The position numbers and the translations under genes were made by a program. Of a stretch of DNA of 38,224 nt, positions 137 to 27,550 are shown piece by piece. The DNA lies in NCBI GenBank assembly GCA_019307945.1, contig JAFDIS010000026.1, forward strand, positions 1-38,224, given 5' to 3'. The number at the start of each line of letters is the position of its first letter. The stretch's first letter is position 1. Below the pieces are notes generated by a model. The model saw nothing but the letters and a program-made list of their open reading frames with translations. It did no database searches and had not been told where the DNA came from. This DNA is from Deltaproteobacteria bacterium. Its GTDB lineage: Bacteria > Desulfobacterota > DSM-4660 > Desulfatiglandales > Desulfatiglandaceae.

Positions 137-580
137 TCAGGTTCGTCTCCCCTTTTTCGCCCATTCCGGTATCCGCACGTCGGCAGCCGGATCAAGTATT
201 TCGGTGCAAGGCTTGATGTCCAGAACCGGAGTGCCGTCAAAGGCGTCCAGTTTCTCCACCAAGAGGCGGTTTCCATCCATCTTCAAGAGTCTGCAGATCC
301 ACATGCCTATGGGGTTGGGCCTTGCGGGCGACCGTGTGGCGAATACGCCCCGCAGGGGATTTCGGGGATCTCCGCGCGGGTGGACCTGAAGGATTTTCCG
401 TCGGGAACGAGTATCAGTCCCGTGAAACCAGGCCAGCAGCACGAGATGGGAGAAATCCTCGAGTCCCATAAGGGCGTCTGCATAGGCGTCAAACACCTCG
501 ATGGTGGTTCTCGCAACCTCCTGCCGGATGATCCCCACCGGGCGGACCTGGTATGGCCCCATGGGATGGTTGGTGTCCAT
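137..580 (-). CDS. trmO: TrmO-like tRNA t6A37 methyltransferase (TsaA/YaeB family)
   Basis: The 147-residue product belongs to the TsaA/YaeB/VirR family, whose characterised member TrmO N6-methylates the t6A at position 37 of some tRNAs using SAM. Seen: the family core FSHLVLLAWFHG and the signature GVFATRSPARPNPIG followed by KLDAFDGTPVLDIKP. The chosen start (ATG at 578-580) has GGGGAG seven bases upstream. The frame stays open for 38 more codons, but that extension is Pro/Arg-rich and unlike the family, so I left it out. The protein is shorter than the E. coli enzyme (about 235 aa) because it lacks the C-terminal extra domain, as is common in compact homologues. Cytoplasmic. It is transcribed away from the next gene, with no obvious partner. 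Confidence 0.85.
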   Translation of the reverse strand: MDTNHPMGPYQVRPVGIIRQEVARTTIEVFDAYADALMGLEDFSHLVLLAWFHGTDTRSRRKILQVHPRGDPRNPLRGVFATRSPARPNPIGMWICRLLKMDGNRLLVEKLDAFDGTPVLDIKPCTEILDPAADVRIPEWAKKGRRT

Positions 581-1138
581 CTGTTTTCTCCCCGGCAACA
601 GGGTGGGCGGTATAGCCCCGTCCCCCCGGGCGGCCGGTGCCCCGGGGGATGGGGGGCTTCTAAAACGGCGCAATGTGAAATCCATGGTTATCATATTACG
701 GATCGATTTTCACGCGGGGAAGCTCTCATTCGCTTGAGGCCTCACTAACTCCTTCTCTGTTCAGTCTACCTTTGGGGGCTCACGGGCTCTTGACTTCCCC
801 TTTTCAAAAGTAAGCCGCTGGTCTATAGTGACATTCCATGATCGCATTCCAGTGCCCCAACGTCCACCCGGAGGAGCAGGCCGGTCATGAGACCGATGCG
901 CCAGGTTCCCTTTCGACGCAAGGTCCGGCGTTTGACGAGAGCCAACCCTGTGTGGCTCCACGGGCTGCTTTCCCGCAGGCCGTCCACCTGCGGAGGCGGC
1001 GGGTCTTTCCGGCCGGGCTGACGCAGGATCTCCGGGGTCAGGGGAACTGAGATCCGGATCGGGGTGTCCTCGGCCCCGGGGAGTGCGCGCCGCCTACGAA
1101 GGCGGGGATGAACGGCCGAAGAGCCCAGGGGAAGAGCC
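581..1138. other. Gene-free interval between divergent genes
   Basis: About 560 bases separate trmO (leftward) from the permease-kinase gene (rightward). I see no frame with a recognisable product or credible ribosome site. It should hold both promoters. A possible TATAGT -10 box lies at 824-829 but lacks a good -35 partner. The rightward gene has a purine-rich site AGGGGAAG shortly before its ATG. Confidence 0.5.
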
Positions 1139-4111
1139 ATGAGAGCATGGGTGGAAATCCTGGAATTGTGGGGCTGGACGCGTTTCGTGGTGGCCCACAG
1201 GATCCTGGTGATCGCGGTCTTTGCGATCGTGACGGCAGCGCTCTGTGCCGGACTTCCACGGCTCCGCCTGGAGACATCCATTTACGATCTGGCCATCGAG
1301 GACCTTCCGGAGAAAAAGGCCTACGACGCCTTTAAAGAGAGATTCGGCAGTGAAGAAATCATCGTGGTGGTGGTCCATGATGTCGACGTCTTCAATCCCC
1401 GGGTCTTCGAGAAAATTCGGAATCTTTCGGAGTGTCTGTCCAAGGTGCCCGGGGTCAGGCGGGTCCTGAGTCTTCCTCACATCAAAGACAGGATGGATGT
1501 GACGAAGAAGTGGGATCTGGCCCGCTACCGGCAGGTAGTCCGCCAGGTTTCTCTCTTCACCAGGAATATCGTTTCTCCCGATGAGAGGCACACGGCCATC
1601 ACCCTGGTCCTGGAGGCCGGGCCGCCGAGGGCCCGCATCCTGGCCGAGGTCCGCTCGGTCATGGCCGGTGAGGGCAAAGGACTTCCCCTTTATGACACCG
1701 GACTTCCATCGGTCTCGGACGCCCTGGTCCGTGCCACGGAAAGGGATTTCATCTGGCTTCCGCCCCTGACCTTTCTCCTGATGGCCGTGGCCCTCGCGGT
1801 TGTGTTCCGCCGGGCGGGTTTTGTGCTCTTGCCGGTGGCCTCCCTCTTGCTCGTCCTGCTGTGGACATTCGGCGCAATGGCCTGGGCCGGAGTGCCGCTT
1901 TCCATGCTGACCATGATCGTGCCGGTTTTTCTCGTTGCCGTGGGGACCGCCTACGGCCTGCACGTCCTTTCCGAGCACAAAGTCTCAGTGGAAAAGACCC
2001 CGGGGGCCGGCGAGGCGGCCCGCCGCACCTATGCGCGCATGGGGTTCCCGGTGTCCCTGGCCGTGATTACTACGGGAATCGGTGTGGCTTCCCTGCTGGT
2101 CAACAAGATGGAGGGAATCAGGCAGTTTTCCGTCGCCTCCTGTTTCGGTCTCCTTGGCCTCTTCGTGGTCATGCTTGTCCTCTGGCCGGCCGTGTTGAGC
2201 CTGCTGCCTCGCGGCGCGTTTCTCCCCAAAGCTCGGGACGGGGATGTGCCGGGACTCGCGGCGCGCTTCCTGGAAAAGGTGCTGGGCGCTGTGATGAGGG
2301 AAGAGAAGAGGACATTGCGGATCATTTGCGCGCTTTCCATACTGGCGGGGGTGGGTCTTTTCCGGCTGGAGGTGGAGACCAACCCTGTGGACTATTTCAA
2401 GGAGAGTTCGGACGTTGCGCGGAACATCCGACACATCAAAGAACACCTGGCCGGGCCCTTTCCCGTCAACGTGATCATGGACGGCAAGGAGGAGGACTTT
2501 TTCGAGAACCCGGCCAACGTGGCTCGAATCGCTGCGCTCCAGGATTTCTTGGGAACTCTCGAGGGGGTGGATACCACCGTTTCCCTTGCCGACTACCTGC
2601 GCCTGGTCAACTACGCCACGAACCGGTACAAGGAGAAATTTTACCGACTGCCCGCAGAAGGTTTCGAACTCCGCATCCTGATGAACAACCTCAAGAGTCT
2701 CCTGGGTCAGGATGTCTTCGACCAGTTCATGACGGCGGATCTTTCCTCCGCCAACGTGCTGCTTAGGACGAGCATCTCGAGTTCCACCGATTTTTTGAAG
2801 CTCAAGGAAAAGATTCTCCGCCACGTGGCCGATGCCACCTACGGTGGGGCCGATATACGGGTCACCGGGTTGGGGCCCGTTATAGCCGAGAGCAGCCACC
2901 TGCTTACACGAGGTCAGATCAAGAGCCTTGCACTGACCCTGGCCCTTATTTTTGTGGTGATGTTTTTGCTTTTCATGTCGGCCAAAGTAGGGTTGGTGGC
3001 CCTGGTCCCCAACCTTTTTCCCATCCTGGTTTGTTTCGGTTTCATGGGATGGTTCGGGGTGGAGATATCGGTGGCCACGGTCTTGGTGGCCTGTGTGGCC
3101 ATCGGGCTCGCGGTGGACGATACGATTCATTATCTGTTTCGTTACAACAGGGAATTTCGGCTCGACCCTGACCGCCGCCGGGCGGTACGCCGAGCCCTGC
3201 TCGGCATGGGAAGACCCATCGTTTTCACCACCCTGACCATCAGCCTGGGATTTTGCGTATTGCTTTTTTCCAGTTTCAAACCCACCATTACTTTCGGGGC
3301 GCTGATGGTCCTGACCATGGTCTCGGCCCTTGTGGGAGACCTCGTGGTCCTGCCCGCCTTGATGCGCCGGGTGGAGTTGGTGACCGTGTGGGATCTTCTA
3401 AAGTCCATGTCCACCGTGGACAGGATGGCCGGAGACCTGATTCACGAGTTGAATCAACCGCTCAACGCCATCAAGATGGGAAGCGAATTCATCCGGATGT
3501 GCGTTGAGGAGCGGGAAGACGACGGGGGTGAGGAACTGGCCCGGGTAGCCCGGGAGATCAGCACCCAGGCGGATCGTGCGGCCGAGATCGTATGGAGAAT
3601 ACGTGAATTTGAAACCAGGCCCGGCGTGGAAACGGAGAGGGTCGACATCAACGGGCCCATCCGGAGTGTAGTTGATATCATGGCCCATCAACTTCGGGTG
3701 GACGATATACGGCTGGATCTGGATCTGGCCCATGACCTGCCCCCCGTGTTGGCCCACGAGGACCGTCTGAAGCAGGTGTTCTACAACCTGCTGACCAACG
3801 CCCGGGAGTCCATAGACAGGAAGCGGAGAGGCCCCCGACCGCCTGAAGCCCATCGGATCCGGATCGCCACCTCCATGGACGGAGACCGTGTGGTGGTTTC
3901 CATCACCGATACGGGGGAGGGGATACCGAAACGGGATCGAGAGCGGATTTTCGACCCCTTCTACACCACCAAGCCACACGGGCGGGGGAAGGGGCTGGGT
4001 CTTTCCATCAGCCGCGGGATCGTCAGGGAATACGGGGGCCGGGTCCTGGTCCGTTCGGAGCCGGGCCGGGGGGCGATATTCCGATTGACATTCCCCCGGG
4101 CCCCCTTCTAA
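1139..4111 (+). CDS. RND/MMPL-family permease fused to a C-terminal histidine kinase
   Basis: The 990-residue membrane protein has two parts. Residues 1 to about 750 are an RND/MMPL exporter: one N-terminal membrane helix, a periplasmic loop, five helices, then the same 1+5 pattern repeated. VAVGTAYGLHVLSEHK and VAIGLAVDDTIHYLFRYNREFR are the duplicated helix-4-like motifs. Residues about 755-990 are a complete kinase core: H-box LIHELNQPL with phospho-acceptor His769, N-box NLLTNA (Asn883, Asn887), G1 box DTGEGIP (Asp924), FDPFYTTK F-box, and G2 box GRGKGLGLSI (Gly950). The H-box is of the HELNQPL type seen in NtrB/DctB-like kinases. No response regulator is adjacent. Inference: transport or ligand occupancy may control phosphorylation. 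AGGGGAAG supports the ATG start. Substrate unknown (lipids or hydrophobic compounds are typical for MMPL proteins). Confidence 0.88.
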   Translation: MRAWVEILELWGWTRFVVAHRILVIAVFAIVTAALCAGLPRLRLETSIYDLAIEDLPEKKAYDAFKERFGSEEIIVVVVHDVDVFNPRVFEKIRNLSECLSKVPGVRRVLSLPHIKDRMDVTKKWDLARYRQVVRQVSLFTRNIVSPDERHTAITLVLEAGPPRARILAEVRSVMAGEGKGLPLYDTGLPSVSDALVRATERDFIWLPPLTFLLMAVALAVVFRRAGFVLLPVASLLLVLLWTFGAMAWAGVPLSMLTMIVPVFLVAVGTAYGLHVLSEHKVSVEKTPGAGEAARRTYARMGFPVSLAVITTGIGVASLLVNKMEGIRQFSVASCFGLLGLFVVMLVLWPAVLSLLPRGAFLPKARDGDVPGLAARFLEKVLGAVMREEKRTLRIICALSILAGVGLFRLEVETNPVDYFKESSDVARNIRHIKEHLAGPFPVNVIMDGKEEDFFENPANVARIAALQDFLGTLEGVDTTVSLADYLRLVNYATNRYKEKFYRLPAEGFELRILMNNLKSLLGQDVFDQFMTADLSSANVLLRTSISSSTDFLKLKEKILRHVADATYGGADIRVTGLGPVIAESSHLLTRGQIKSLALTLALIFVVMFLLFMSAKVGLVALVPNLFPILVCFGFMGWFGVEISVATVLVACVAIGLAVDDTIHYLFRYNREFRLDPDRRRAVRRALLGMGRPIVFTTLTISLGFCVLLFSSFKPTITFGALMVLTMVSALVGDLVVLPALMRRVELVTVWDLLKSMSTVDRMAGDLIHELNQPLNAIKMGSEFIRMCVEEREDDGGEELARVAREISTQADRAAEIVWRIREFETRPGVETERVDINGPIRSVVDIMAHQLRVDDIRLDLDLAHDLPPVLAHEDRLKQVFYNLLTNARESIDRKRRGPRPPEAHRIRIATSMDGDRVVVSITDTGEGIPKRDRERIFDPFYTTKPHGRGKGLGLSISRGIVREYGGRVLVRSEPGRGAIFRLTFPRAPF

Positions 4112-4146: not shown

Positions 4147-5595
4147 ATGGTTGAAGATGCTTTTCGTTCTGCGCTGCTCACCGATCTCTATCAGTTGACC
4201 ATGGTGGGCGGTTACGTGCTCGCGGGCAAGGCCGGACAGCGGGCAAACTTCGATTATTTTTTCAGACAGGTGCCCGACAACGGCGGATTCTGTGTCCTGG
4301 CGGGCCTGGAGCAGGTAGCCGCCTATGTTCGCAACCTGCGGTTCACAGAAGACGACCTGGCCTACCTCGAAAGCCTTGGGCTCTTCCCCGAGCCCGTACT
4401 TAGCTATTTCAAAGAGTTTTCTTTTCATGGGGACCTTTATGCCATGCCTGAAGGGACCGTGGCCTTTCCCCAGGAGCCCCTCATCCGGGTGACCGCCTCG
4501 CTGCCCGAGGCGCAGCTCATCGAGACCGCACTTTTGAATATCGTTAATTTCCAGACCCTCATCGCCACCAAGGCGGCCCGGGTATGTATAGCGGCGGAAG
4601 GGGGAGTCGTCATTGATTTCGGCCTGAGGCGGGCGCACGGGCCCAACGGCGGGCTCATGGCTTCCAGGGCGGCCTACGTGGGGGGGGTGGAAGGCACGTC
4701 CAATGTCCTGGCCGGTAAGGCTTACGGTATTCCGCTTCGTGGTACACATGCCCATAGCTGGGTGGAAAGCTTTCCGTCGGAACTGGACGCCTTTCGCACA
4801 TACGCAGACCTCTACCCGGACAATGTGGTTCTGCTCGTGGACACGTACGACAGTTTACGATCCGGGCTTCCCCACGCTGTCCAGGTGGGAAAGGAGCTCA
4901 AGGAGCGGGGAAAGAGCCTGAGAGGTGTCCGGCTGGACAGCGGTGATCTCGCCTATCTGAGCCAACGGGCCCGGGAGGAATTGGACCGAAACGGGCTTCA
5001 GGACGCTGGTATCGTGGCCTCCAGCGACCTTGACGAATGGCTCATCGAAAGCCTGAAAAAACAGGGTGCCATGATCGATATCTGGGGAGTGGGTACGCGG
5101 CTTGTCACATCCTATTCCTCGCCTGCTCTGGGGGGAGTGTATAAACTAACGGCCCTGGACGAGAACGGAAGGAAGATGGTGCCCAAACTCAAGCGTTCGG
5201 ATAATCCCATGAAAATCACCAATCCGGGCAAGAAGGTTCCCATTCGTATCGTGGACGAGCACGACCAGATCCGTGGAGACGTGCTTTTCCTGGTAGATGA
5301 AGATCCTTTCGAGGAGGCGCCGTTGGTGGCGTTTCATCCCCTGTACAGCCACGTGCGAAAGGAATACCCCGCCCATTTCAAGAGGGAGGAACTCCTGGTG
5401 CCGGTCCTGGTGGGAGGAGAGCCGGTGTACGAGTTCCCGCCCCTGGAAGAGGTGAGGAAAAACACCTTCAGAAACCTCTCCCGGCTGGACCGGGCCTATA
5501 AACGCTTTCACAATCCGCATACCTATCATGTGAGCCTCAGCAAACGCCTTTTCGAAATGAAGCAGCGCTTGCTGGTCAACTCCGGCATCGGATAA
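4147..5595 (+). CDS. pncB: Nicotinate phosphoribosyltransferase
   Basis: The 482-residue enzyme joins nicotinate with PRPP to make nicotinate mononucleotide in the Preiss-Handler NAD salvage route; cytoplasmic. Seen: N-terminal LLTDLYQLTM, NFQTLIATKAAR, FGLRRAHGPNGG, the GTHAHSW motif at residues 199-205 that includes the His phosphorylated in this family, VRLDSGDL, and the GVGTRLVTS phosphate-binding segment. Length is normal for the bacterial long-form enzyme. AAAGGA lies about 11 bases before the ATG. It starts 35 bases after the permease-kinase gene on the same strand, so co-transcription is possible, although no functional link is evident. No other NAD gene is nearby. Confidence 0.95.
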   Translation: MVEDAFRSALLTDLYQLTMVGGYVLAGKAGQRANFDYFFRQVPDNGGFCVLAGLEQVAAYVRNLRFTEDDLAYLESLGLFPEPVLSYFKEFSFHGDLYAMPEGTVAFPQEPLIRVTASLPEAQLIETALLNIVNFQTLIATKAARVCIAAEGGVVIDFGLRRAHGPNGGLMASRAAYVGGVEGTSNVLAGKAYGIPLRGTHAHSWVESFPSELDAFRTYADLYPDNVVLLVDTYDSLRSGLPHAVQVGKELKERGKSLRGVRLDSGDLAYLSQRAREELDRNGLQDAGIVASSDLDEWLIESLKKQGAMIDIWGVGTRLVTSYSSPALGGVYKLTALDENGRKMVPKLKRSDNPMKITNPGKKVPIRIVDEHDQIRGDVLFLVDEDPFEEAPLVAFHPLYSHVRKEYPAHFKREELLVPVLVGGEPVYEFPPLEEVRKNTFRNLSRLDRAYKRFHNPHTYHVSLSKRLFEMKQRLLVNSGIG

Positions 5596-9581: not shown

Positions 9582-11150
9582 ATGATCACCTTGCTGGACT
9601 ACGGGGCCGGAAACGTGAGAAGCGTCATCAACGCCATCCAGGCCCTGGGGGAGCAGGTCACGGTGGTTCGAGACCCCGACGATATCCTGCGGGCGGAGAA
9701 ACTGGTCTTTCCCGGCGTGGGCGCCTTTGGGAGCATGATGCAGATCCTCGAGAAACGCCGTTTCGTGGAACCGCTGAGGGCCTACCTCGGTTCGGGGCGT
9801 CCCTTCCTCGGTATCTGCCTGGGCCTCCAGGCCCTGTTCGAAGTCAGTGAGGAAGCCCCGGGCGTGCCGGGCCTGGGGTTTTTCCCGGGCACCGTGGAGA
9901 GGTTTCGGGTGGACCGCTCCGTGCCCCATATCGGCTGGAACGGGATCAGCGCCAAAAAACCCTCAGGCCTTTTCCGGGGGCTCCGGGGAGATGAGAAATT
10001 CTATTTCGTTCATTCCTACCACGTGGTCCCGGAGGACCCCAAGATCGTGCTCACCACGACCAGGTATGGTTACGACTTCGTGAGCGGGGTGCAGAATGAA
10101 AACCTCTTCGCCACCCAGTTTCACCCGGAAAAGAGCGGTGAGGCCGGTTTGACGATCCTGAGAAATTTCCTGGCGGGGCGGCCGGGCACCACCGCCCTGC
10201 CGTCCGGCGCGGGCACCCGTTTGGCCCGCCGCATCATAGCTTGCCTGGACGTGCGCTCTGACGACGCCGGGGACCTCGTGGTGACCAAGGGGGATCAGTA
10301 CGATGTGAGGGAAAGGGGGGCGGTGCGCAATCTGGGAAAGCCGGTGGATCTTGCCCGGCGGTATTACGAGGAGGGGGCCGATGAGATCACCTTCCTCAAC
10401 ATCACTGCCTTCCGGGATTTTCCCCTGCTGGACATGCCCATGCTGGATGTCTTGAAACGAACCTCGGAGAACGTCTTCGTGCCGCTGACCATCGGGGGCG
10501 GGATCCGCGATTACACGGACCGAAACGGCCGGCGGTATTCGGCCCTGGAGGTGGCGGCCGAATATTTCAGGTCAGGGGCGGACAAGGTGTCCATCGGAAG
10601 CGACGCGGTACGCATCGTGGAGGATTATCTCCGCACGGGAAAAAAGACCGGCAAGAGCGCCATTGAGGAGATTTCCAGGGTCTATGGAAACCAGGCCGTG
10701 GTGATTTCCATCGATCCGAGGCGCGTCTACGTGGCCGGGCCCGATGAGGTTCCCCACCATGTCCTGGAGACGGAGCTGCCGGGCCCTCGGGGCGAGCGCT
10801 ATTGCTGGTATCAGTGCACCGTGAAAGGGGGTCGCGAGGGGCGACCTGTTGATGCGGTCACCCTGGCCCGGGCCGTGGAAGACCTGGGGGCCGGGGAGAT
10901 CCTGCTCAACTGTATAGACCGGGACGGGACAAACCTGGGGTTCGACCTGGAATTGATCAGCGCCGTCAAAAAGGCCGTCTCCATTCCTGTGATCGCCTCG
11001 AGCGGAGCCGGATCCGTGGAGCATTTCCTGGAAGTGTTCGCCGCCACTGACGCGGAAGCGGCCCTTGCGGCCGGGATTTTCCACAGAGAAGAGGTGCCCA
11101 TCCGGGCGGTGAAGGAATTCTTGGCGGGGAAAGTGGAGATAAGGCCATGA
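9582..11150 (+). CDS. hisHF: Bifunctional imidazole glycerol-phosphate synthase, HisH-HisF fusion (HIS7-like)
   Basis: One 522-residue chain makes both IGP and AICAR in histidine biosynthesis. Residues 1-205 are the HisH glutaminase ([25 protein letters not shown]) with catalytic Cys79, His181 and Glu183. Residues about 215-522 are the HisF cyclase barrel with Asp223 (ACLDV) and Asp378 (SIDPRR), the ammonia-accepting synthase. Most bacteria encode two proteins; the fused order HisH then HisF is that of fungal and plant HIS7. The HisF half also carries the eukaryote-type long insertion including [15 protein letters not shown] and ends [19 protein letters not shown], very like HIS7. A strong AAAGGAGGAGGG precedes the ATG. 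Its stop overlaps the next ATG (ATGA). No other his gene is in the window. Cytoplasmic. Confidence 0.95.
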
Positions 11151-25552: not shown

Positions 25553-25987
25553 GAGCCACCTCCTCCGAACACAGAAAACATACCATCCCCCACCCCGCGG
25601 ACAGGGGGAAGGAGGATCCTCCCGGAGTGCCCCGATCGGTCGGGGCCGACGGAGCGCGCACCGCGGGAAGGCACGCCCCACCGTTTGTGGTCGCTTCAAG
25701 CCTGGTTTTCAATACAAACAATTCTATCACAATGCAGAGGTAATGGACACGAAAATCGTTCCGTCGTGACAGGGCCCCCACGCGTCACGTCCAGCGCTCC
25801 GGCATGGCCCGGCCGTTCGCGCTGGGGCCTTGAGCAGGCCGGCGGCGCCCGGGGTCCGTGGATCCCACGGGAGTTGCCAAGCCGACACGGATCGGGTATG
25901 AGGTGCATTGGGGCTCTTGAGGATCCAAGACATGAACAGAGCGGACCGGTATGAATCGGAGGCGGTATCTCCTGCATGGGGCCCTTA
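25553..25987. other. Gene-free interval between divergent genes
   Basis: No recognisable gene. An AT-rich patch at about 25704-25740 in otherwise GC-rich DNA may hold promoter elements, but no -35/-10 pair with good spacing stands out. The cyclase ribosome site (GGGG before the ATG at 25988) is at the right edge. Confidence 0.4.
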
Positions 25988-27550
25988 ATGAAAACCATGA
26001 AAAGACATCTCATCGAGTTCCACCTGCGGACCGTGGGGGCCAATCTGGTGGGCTTCGCCACGGTGGCCAGCCTCAACGCCCTGACACCTCACGACGTATT
26101 CAGGGCGCAGCGGCATTACCTTCTGCAGGAAGGCCATCAGGTTTTTCTCCTCTGGGTCACTCTGGTGGTGATCTTGGCGGCCGTGGCGGTACAATGCCGG
26201 CTCCAGTACCCGATACACGTCTATCTCACCGGTAAGGACGCCTCGTCACGTGCCCGCTTGAAGGCGGCCCGGAGGCTCGTGAACCTGCCCTTCCTGGTGA
26301 GTGCGGGCGGCCTGTTCATGTGGTTCCTGCTGCCCGCGGCCGTCGCCTCCCTCCTGGTCCTGTTCCAGGATGTGCCCGTCAAGATCGCACTCTTTGCGGC
26401 CCTGCGGGCCACAATCGTGGGGCTTGTCTCATCCACCCTTTCATTTTTCCTCCTGGAGGAACACGCCCGCAACCGGCTCGTCCCCCTCCTGTATCCCGAG
26501 GGCAAGCTGACGCTCATGCCGGGCACCGTGAAACTCCCGGTCCTGGGCCGCATCCGGATCCTTTATGTGACCGGTACATTGGTGCCCATGATTATCCTGT
26601 TGGCCACCTACCTCCTTGTGCTCAAGGGGATGGAAGGTGCTACTCTGGAGGCGAGGATTTTCGCAAGGGAAATGTTTTACTTCACCGGGTTCTTGAGCCT
26701 GGTGTTCCTGATGATCGCTTTCCGCCTGACCCACCTGGTGGGGCGCTCCATCTCGGACCCGGTCAAAAACATCATGCGGAGCGTCAAGGCGGCGCGACAG
26801 GGCCGGTTTCACCTAAGGATCCAGGTGGTTTCCAACGACGAGATCGGAGCCCTGGGCGATGCGGCCAACGAAATGATGGCGGGCCTTGAGGAACGGGAAT
26901 TCATCAAGGACCTTTTCGGGAAATACGTGGCCCCGGAAGTGCGGGACGAGATCCTGTCGGGCAGGATCCCGCTGGACGGGGAGCGCAGGCGCGCCACGGT
27001 GCTCTTCGCGGACCTGCGCGGGTTCACCGCATACGTAGAGGCCCATCCCCCGGAGGAGGTGATCCACGGCATGCGCTCCTATTTTTCAGCCATGGATCAG
27101 GCGGTGCGTGCCCACGGGGGGCTGGTCCTGCAGTACGTGGGGGACGAAGTGGAGGCGGTCTTCGGGGTACCCCTGCCCCTGGAAGACCACGCCCAACGTG
27201 CAGTGGCTGCGTCCCTTCTGATGCGGCAGGCCCTCAAGCGCCTCAACCGGCAACGGGAATCGGCCGGGCTCGCGCCCTTCTCCCACGGTGTGGGGATCCA
27301 TACCGGAGAGGTCCTGGCGGGCAACATGGGCAGCGAGGCGAGACTGTCCTACGCCCTGATCGGCGACACGGTGAATCTCGCCTCCCGGATCCAGGATCTC
27401 ACCAAGCGCTTCGGGTGCGACGTCCTGGCCAGCGCAGAGACGGTGGCCGAAGTGCAAGGCCGCTTCGTCACCGAGGCAAAACCCCCTGTGCAGGTGAAAG
27501 GTTATTCCCGGCCGATCCAGGTTTACGCCGTGCGAGGCATCGCATTTTGA
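25988..27550 (+). CDS. Class III nucleotidyl cyclase: six membrane helices, HAMP, cyclase domain
   Basis: The 520-residue membrane protein probably makes cAMP (or cGMP). Six hydrophobic helices span residues about 18-250, followed by a HAMP linker (about 255-310, GRSISDPVKNIMRSVKAARQ, DEIGALGDAANEM) and a cyclase domain (about 330-515). This layout matches the six-helix/HAMP cyclases best known from actinobacteria. Metal-binding Asp342 (FADLRGFTA) and Asp386 (YVGDEVEAVFG) and the transition-state pair Asn463/Arg467 (NLASR) are present, so catalysis is plausible. The base-selecting Lys is Gln382 and the usual Asp/Thr position appears to be Ala456, so ATP versus GTP preference cannot be read. 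Start at 25988 follows GGGG by six bases; ATGs at 25976 and 25997 are alternatives. Confidence 0.87.
   Translation: MKTMKRHLIEFHLRTVGANLVGFATVASLNALTPHDVFRAQRHYLLQEGHQVFLLWVTLVVILAAVAVQCRLQYPIHVYLTGKDASSRARLKAARRLVNLPFLVSAGGLFMWFLLPAAVASLLVLFQDVPVKIALFAALRATIVGLVSSTLSFFLLEEHARNRLVPLLYPEGKLTLMPGTVKLPVLGRIRILYVTGTLVPMIILLATYLLVLKGMEGATLEARIFAREMFYFTGFLSLVFLMIAFRLTHLVGRSISDPVKNIMRSVKAARQGRFHLRIQVVSNDEIGALGDAANEMMAGLEEREFIKDLFGKYVAPEVRDEILSGRIPLDGERRRATVLFADLRGFTAYVEAHPPEEVIHGMRSYFSAMDQAVRAHGGLVLQYVGDEVEAVFGVPLPLEDHAQRAVAASLLMRQALKRLNRQRESAGLAPFSHGVGIHTGEVLAGNMGSEARLSYALIGDTVNLASRIQDLTKRFGCDVLASAETVAEVQGRFVTEAKPPVQVKGYSRPIQVYAVRGIAF

Follow-up and report, generated by a model that had tools for sequence, protein, structure and literature searches.

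Architecture of the Fusion Protein

The locus analyzed here raises the question of what an RND/MMPL-type transporter domain does at the head of a histidine kinase, and which regulator and which cellular process such a kinase would serve. The window, which is the whole stretch of 38,224 nucleotides from a Desulfatiglandaceae genome that was analyzed, contains an open reading frame of 990 codons (1139..4111, + strand) with zero internal stops, in which Pfam recognizes MMPL, HisKA, and HATPase_c domains. The MMPL/RND domain with its 12 transmembrane helices occupies residues 1-745 (1139..3373; Pfam PF03176, AlphaFold2, Foldseek/VIA), and is followed by a short linker (residues 743-764; 3365..3430) with a conserved VELVTxWDLL sequence, a HisKA/DHp domain (residues 761-825; 3419..3613; PF00512), and a HATPase_c domain (residues 873-988; 3755..4102; PF02518). 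The phospho-acceptor is His769 (3443-3445) in the sequence HELNQPLNAIK, and it is unchanged across six aligned full-length fusions. The HATPase_c domain has intact N (N887), G1 (D924, G926, and G928), F (F938), and G2 (G950, G952, and G954) boxes, so that the protein has both the H-box histidine and the four boxes expected of a HisKA-type kinase. The initial annotation had described a permease and a histidine kinase in one chain, with a full 12-helix RND/MMPL part and an intact kinase core around His769; all of this is borne out by the Pfam matches, the residue check, and the structural model.

That model, built with AlphaFold2 from 31 aligned relatives, has a mean pLDDT of 82 and places 12 long membrane helices within residues 21-742; low confidence chiefly concerns the linker and the kinase's DHp portion. 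The linker, whose structure the initial annotation had suggested predicting, was thus modeled (as a monomer) at low confidence. The PF03176 match scores 131.3 bits against a cut-off of 20.5 and falls in two stretches, while TIGR00921 (HAE3 subfamily) scores 247.7 bits, under its cut-off of 351.9. An SSF/SLC5 domain was sought by Pfam without a match in the fusion, and the membrane domain is of the MMPL type. RND topology places the C-terminal end on the cytoplasmic side, where a kinase has to be.

The proton-relay positions of this domain depart in part from those of ordinary RND pumps. In TM4, Ala271-Tyr272 (1949..1954, +) align to Asp407-Asp408 of MexB, and the acid has been lost, whereas the Asp660-Asp661 pair of TM10 (3116..3121, +) is retained invariantly in the alignment. 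Alanine at the position equivalent to MexB Asp407 was found in all 15 kinase-type relatives aligned, and in 17 of 18 relatives of a second type carrying a cyclic-nucleotide-binding domain (cNBD). Given the lost TM4 acid and the invariant TM10 pair, a changed function or one in sensing is no less likely than ordinary pumping, and a proton coupling that is altered rather than abolished would suit the sensing of proton motive force (PMF) or of a membrane ligand no less well than pumping.

Distribution of the Fusion and Its Sister Family

The same architecture recurs in at least 15 other Desulfobacterota species-level genomes, with 43-48% full-length identity and about 51-62% junction identity to the window protein. 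A junction search returned proteins of about 1000 residues, 51-59% identical across the junction, from a number of genera within the same family. As the same junction is found in all of these genomes, a chance or frameshift artefact of assembly is excluded. The initial annotation had named a consistent occurrence of homologs as two separate genes as evidence against a true fusion; close homologs are single-chain, and permease and kinase as two genes were not seen among them. The fusion is present in 11 of 85 genomes of the class and in 5 of 395 genomes of a spread sample of the phylum, two of the five (L177 and L178) being from another family. No plasmid-borne copy covering 80% of the fusion protein was found in 72,556 plasmids. 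A scan of GTDB species located the fusion in further genomes, including at least the cultured Delta proteobacterium NaphS2 (L074) and a Desulfosudis oleivorans MAG (L100), which makes hypotheses on its function testable; MMPL-kinase fusions of independent origin may occur elsewhere. The window copy lies on a long branch in the MMPL-domain tree, and its function may therefore have drifted.

The MMPL part also occurs without a kinase, either alone or with a different output. In a sister family (L053 5663-8908, +, and its relatives L055, L062-L064, and L075-L095), the same MMPL domain and VELVTxWDLL linker are joined to a cNBD, mostly followed by a GGDEF domain, and many of these genes sit between a hydrogenase large subunit gene and the gene for the protease HycI. 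The GGDEF domain is degenerate, and an active diguanylate cyclase was rejected because the GG[DE]EF motif is absent in all members aligned. The MMPL domains of the kinase-type and cNBD-type proteins interleave in the tree, which suggests that output domains have been exchanged between the two sets. With either output found in hydrogenase loci, the MMPL domain would appear to be a re-usable input module of such loci. Separately, a gene on contig C26 (L010 1477-4458, -) encodes a 993-aa protein with a TPR domain ahead of an MMPL transporter and no kinase, and the window itself encodes a HAMP plus adenylate/guanylate cyclase protein (25976-27550, +), a possible source of cyclic nucleotide for cNBD-type proteins.

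Gene Neighborhoods in Relatives and in the Window Genome

We compared 18 loci carrying the fusion outside the window (L047, L048, L051, L052, L067-L074, L078, L097, L100, L101, L177, and L178). In 16 of them, a response regulator with a receiver domain is encoded close to the fusion, the contigs of the remaining two ending too soon. Nearly all 18 also have another histidine kinase beside the fusion, which contains PAS and in some cases Cache domains. [NiFe]-hydrogenase genes are present in 12 loci, of which 10 have a cytoplasmic-type pair (hydS' and hydL') and eight a periplasmic-type pair; in six of these eight, a HycI-type protease gene separates the hydrogenase from the fusion. The full order HydS-HydL-HycI-[MMPL-HK]-hydS'-hydL'-PAS-HK-regulator is found in L069, L177, and L178, which represent different families. 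Counting against a role in hydrogenase control, the stretches read in L047, L048, L070, L072, L074, and L078 contain no hydrogenase (L070, L072, and L074 being the NaphS2-type loci). The regulators of L047 (1627-2346, +) and L051 (9796-10629, +) are longer and combine a receiver with a STAS domain, as determined by Pfam in the former and judged by length and alignment in the latter, hinting at a partner-switching output.

In the window, the fusion is flanked by genes outside this system. A divergent gene upstream (137..694, -) encodes a protein with a TrmO N-terminal domain, and 35 bp past the fusion begins a gene for nicotinate phosphoribosyltransferase (NAPRTase; 4147..5595, +), which is possibly co-transcribed with it. 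Coupling to NAPRTase as a general feature was discarded, since this pairing was met only in the window and not in the relatives' loci. No receiver domain is encoded on the window contig, which begins just 1138 bp upstream of the fusion. The initial annotation had remarked that the regulator is missing next door and must be orphaned elsewhere; this holds in the present genome but not in general, given the nearby regulator in most relatives. Further downstream, HisH and HisF, the glutaminase and cyclase of imidazole glycerol phosphate synthase, form a single 522-aa chain (9582-11150, +), like eukaryotic HIS7.

Two other contigs of this genome carry related genes. Contig C31 (L066) contains a hydS'-hydL'-PAS-HK-regulator set homologous to that in the relatives. 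Contig C103 encodes a periplasmic [NiFe] hydrogenase and its protease, with a 122-aa MMPL gene remnant (L176 1391-1759, -) between the large subunit and HycI, at the position occupied in relatives by a full MMPL-cNBD-GGDEF gene. The fusion gene itself stands outside any hydrogenase locus in the window genome, a further point against hydrogenase control, as is the lack of the C31-type hydrogenase in 6 of the 11 fusion-bearing genomes of the class. Conversely, all five genomes of the class with a C31-type hydrogenase have the fusion, vs. 11 of 85 overall (hypergeometric p of 1.4e-5, kinship ignored). The retention of the fusion in relatives beside hydrogenases, a related kinase, and a regulator indicates that it is probably a membrane sensor that helps to control hydrogen metabolism. 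This setting among hydrogenase genes, which was not visible to the initial annotation, provides the chief clue to what the protein does.

The Linked Cytoplasmic Hydrogenase

The large subunit encoded on contig C31 (L066 3753-5312, +) is here called group 2c-like. Its L2 motif, SFDPCLVCTVH, which is shared by most relatives, agrees with the group 2c consensus SFDxCLVCTVH, known mostly from sulfate reducers and methylotrophs (PMC4853749). HydDB treats group 2c as putative sensors whose role is undetermined, and they have been described as diguanylate cyclase-linked (PMC5037454). The closest solved structure is the group-2 hydrogenase Huc, from which the linked hydrogenases also branch apart in the tree, and inspection of the N-termini of the linked small subunits found a Tat signal in none of them. 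Membership in HupUV is unsupported, as the tree separates a HupV clade (100/99) from a group (99/98) formed by the linked hydrogenases and one cyclase-linked relative, the latter being the plasmid enzyme L229 on a long branch in a tree that held no curated 2c set. The L1 motif of the C31 large subunit contains a Gln (RICGICTTAQ), and so do those of three HupV references. HupV reference large subunits terminate at the His, and the C-terminal tail of the linked large subunits is 4-8 residues in 6 of 10 and longer in C31, L073, L097, and L101, with C31 having an unusual tail of 22 residues. Judging from these sequence features, the linked hydrogenase is probably a group 2c-like H2 sensor.

Kinase Origin and Candidate Regulator

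A tree of 53 kinases, comprising 17 fusion kinases, 16 neighboring kinases, and 20 others of the window genome, resolved the fusion kinases as one clade (99/92). This clade and the 16 neighboring, hydrogenase-linked kinases together formed a 100/100 clade apart from the 20 others. Both sets share the acceptor helix HELNQPLNAIKxG, and none of those 20 has it. The acceptor helix region of HisKA kinases sets the choice of regulator, and with this helix in common, the fusion kinase and the PAS kinase probably act on the same regulator. By one further inferred step, the regulator of the fusion in this genome would most probably be the receiver protein on contig C31.

Proposed Function and Alternative Explanations

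Taken together, we favor, at slightly better than even odds (a probability of roughly 0.55), an explanation in which the fusion is a membrane sensor kinase with an RND/MMPL input, feeding the hydrogenase-linked regulator and thereby helping to control hydrogen metabolism. Its basis is the architecture, the catalytic residues, their conservation, the co-location with hydrogenases and regulator, and the kinase paralogy, and from these we infer the shared regulator, sensing over pumping, the identity of the signal, and the control of hydrogenase. The RND/MMPL domain would have been recruited as the input module of a kinase, and its conformational state would be passed through the short cytoplasmic VELVTxWDLL linker to the HisKA-type kinase. 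The latter, as a paralog of the hydrogenase-linked PAS kinase, would act on the same receiver-only or receiver-STAS regulator, which in this genome is most probably the one on contig C31 beside the cytoplasmic group-2 [NiFe] hydrogenase and the PAS kinase. The fusion would thus add a membrane or energy-state signal to the H2 signal, candidates being PMF, perceived via the TM10 Asp pair, or a membrane-soluble ligand. More tentatively, these proteins may represent a new sensor class in sulfate reducers, in which an interchangeable RND/MMPL input reads the membrane energy state, and H2 and PMF meet on one regulator; H2 supply would then be reported by the group 2c-like sensor hydrogenase and the PAS kinase, and PMF by the MMPL kinase.

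The protein could instead be a functional RND/MMPL exporter with an added signaling role, moving a lipid or other hydrophobic substrate while the kinase reports flux, a coupling that the initial annotation had envisaged. CbrA provides a precedent, being a histidine transporter as well as an active kinase (PMC7096432), and the fusion keeps the full 12-helix fold, both periplasmic porter-like domains, and the invariant TM10 Asp pair. We nonetheless consider this possibility rather doubtful, because the TM4 acid is lost in every kinase-type protein aligned (15/15) and replaced by Ala in 17/18 of the cNBD type, and because the recurrent neighbors are hydrogenases, with no recognizable lipid or hopanoid genes among them. 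It is less likely still that the hydrogenase linkage is no more than inherited gene order, the fusion in this genome having acquired another purpose or being in decay and playing no part in hydrogen metabolism. Its detachment from the C31 set, its long branch, the shrinkage of the cNBD-type MMPL gene in the C103 hydrogenase operon to a 122-aa remnant, and the unusual 22-aa tail on the C31 large subunit would all agree with such a history, but no kinase box and none of the invariant MMPL residues has been lost, the C31 set has been retained, and the Gln in the C31 L1 motif is found in three HupV sensors too. That two unrelated outputs, a kinase and a cNBD with an inactive GGDEF, are attached to the same MMPL domain in the same kind of locus might also mean that this domain is mainly a membrane anchor or scaffold that brings a kinase/phosphatase close to the periplasmic hydrogenase and senses nothing. 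This is highly improbable, as a 745-aa 12-helix transporter fold, with acids kept invariant inside the membrane and a linker that is conserved, goes far beyond what an anchor needs.

Comparison With Known Systems

Transporter-headed kinases with SLC5, Amt, and MFS heads are already known. A search of the open-licence PMC literature turned up no paper on an RND/MMPL head fused to a histidine kinase, in line with the initial annotation, which had called such a partner far less familiar; one review names the Amt example as its sole transporter-kinase fusion. An MMPL protein in PMC13101534 belongs to a benzene-transport cluster and is unrelated to the fusion. CbrA of Pseudomonas, an SLC5-histidine kinase combining histidine transport with kinase activity (PMC7096432), was an apt comparison in the initial annotation, as it likewise has a membrane domain with a transporter fold ahead of a histidine kinase within a single chain. 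CbrA differs in its SLC5 fold, a PAS domain between the two parts, and its regulator CbrB, whereas the fusion has an RND/MMPL fold, a short linker, a receiver-only or receiver-STAS regulator, and hydrogenase loci. In Ks-Amt5 of Kuenenia, an ammonium transporter domain is also directly fused to a kinase and has been turned into a sensor, for which binding without transport was shown (PMC5764959); it differs in its Amt fold and its ligand ammonium, and in that binding is shown, the fusion described here being known from sequence and a model. Sensor kinase-MFS fusions (TCDB 2.A.1.34, named in PMC3924187) are again transporter-kinase fusions, but of the MFS fold. Conversely, HAE3/MMPL transporters, HpnN, MmpL3/4/5, Patched, and NPC1 share the fold of residues 1-753 and have no kinase, and MexB-type pumps have an acid pair in TM4 where the fusion has Ala-Tyr. 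An RND head would bring into this group of sensors the fold of Patched and NPC1, for which sensing roles of their own are under debate.

The tie to hydrogen metabolism at the level of the system is of more interest than a new kinase head. The link to a group 2c-like hydrogenase provides a concrete hypothesis for H2 sensing coupled to membrane state in sulfate reducers. Similar to the HupUV-HupT and HoxBC-HoxJ systems (group 2b), the relatives' loci combine a Tat-less cytoplasmic group-2 hydrogenase with an adjoining PAS kinase and a regulator. Those systems use a HoxA/HupR-type activator, whereas the regulators here are receiver-only (receiver-STAS in L047 and L051); further, the linked hydrogenase is apart from HupV, and there is an extra membrane kinase with an RND head. 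The likeness to group 2c [NiFe]-hydrogenases lies in the L2 motif, the clustering with a cyclase-linked relative, and the occurrence in sulfate reducers, with the difference that group 2c in HydDB is diguanylate cyclase-linked, whereas the linked hydrogenases described here are kinase-linked.
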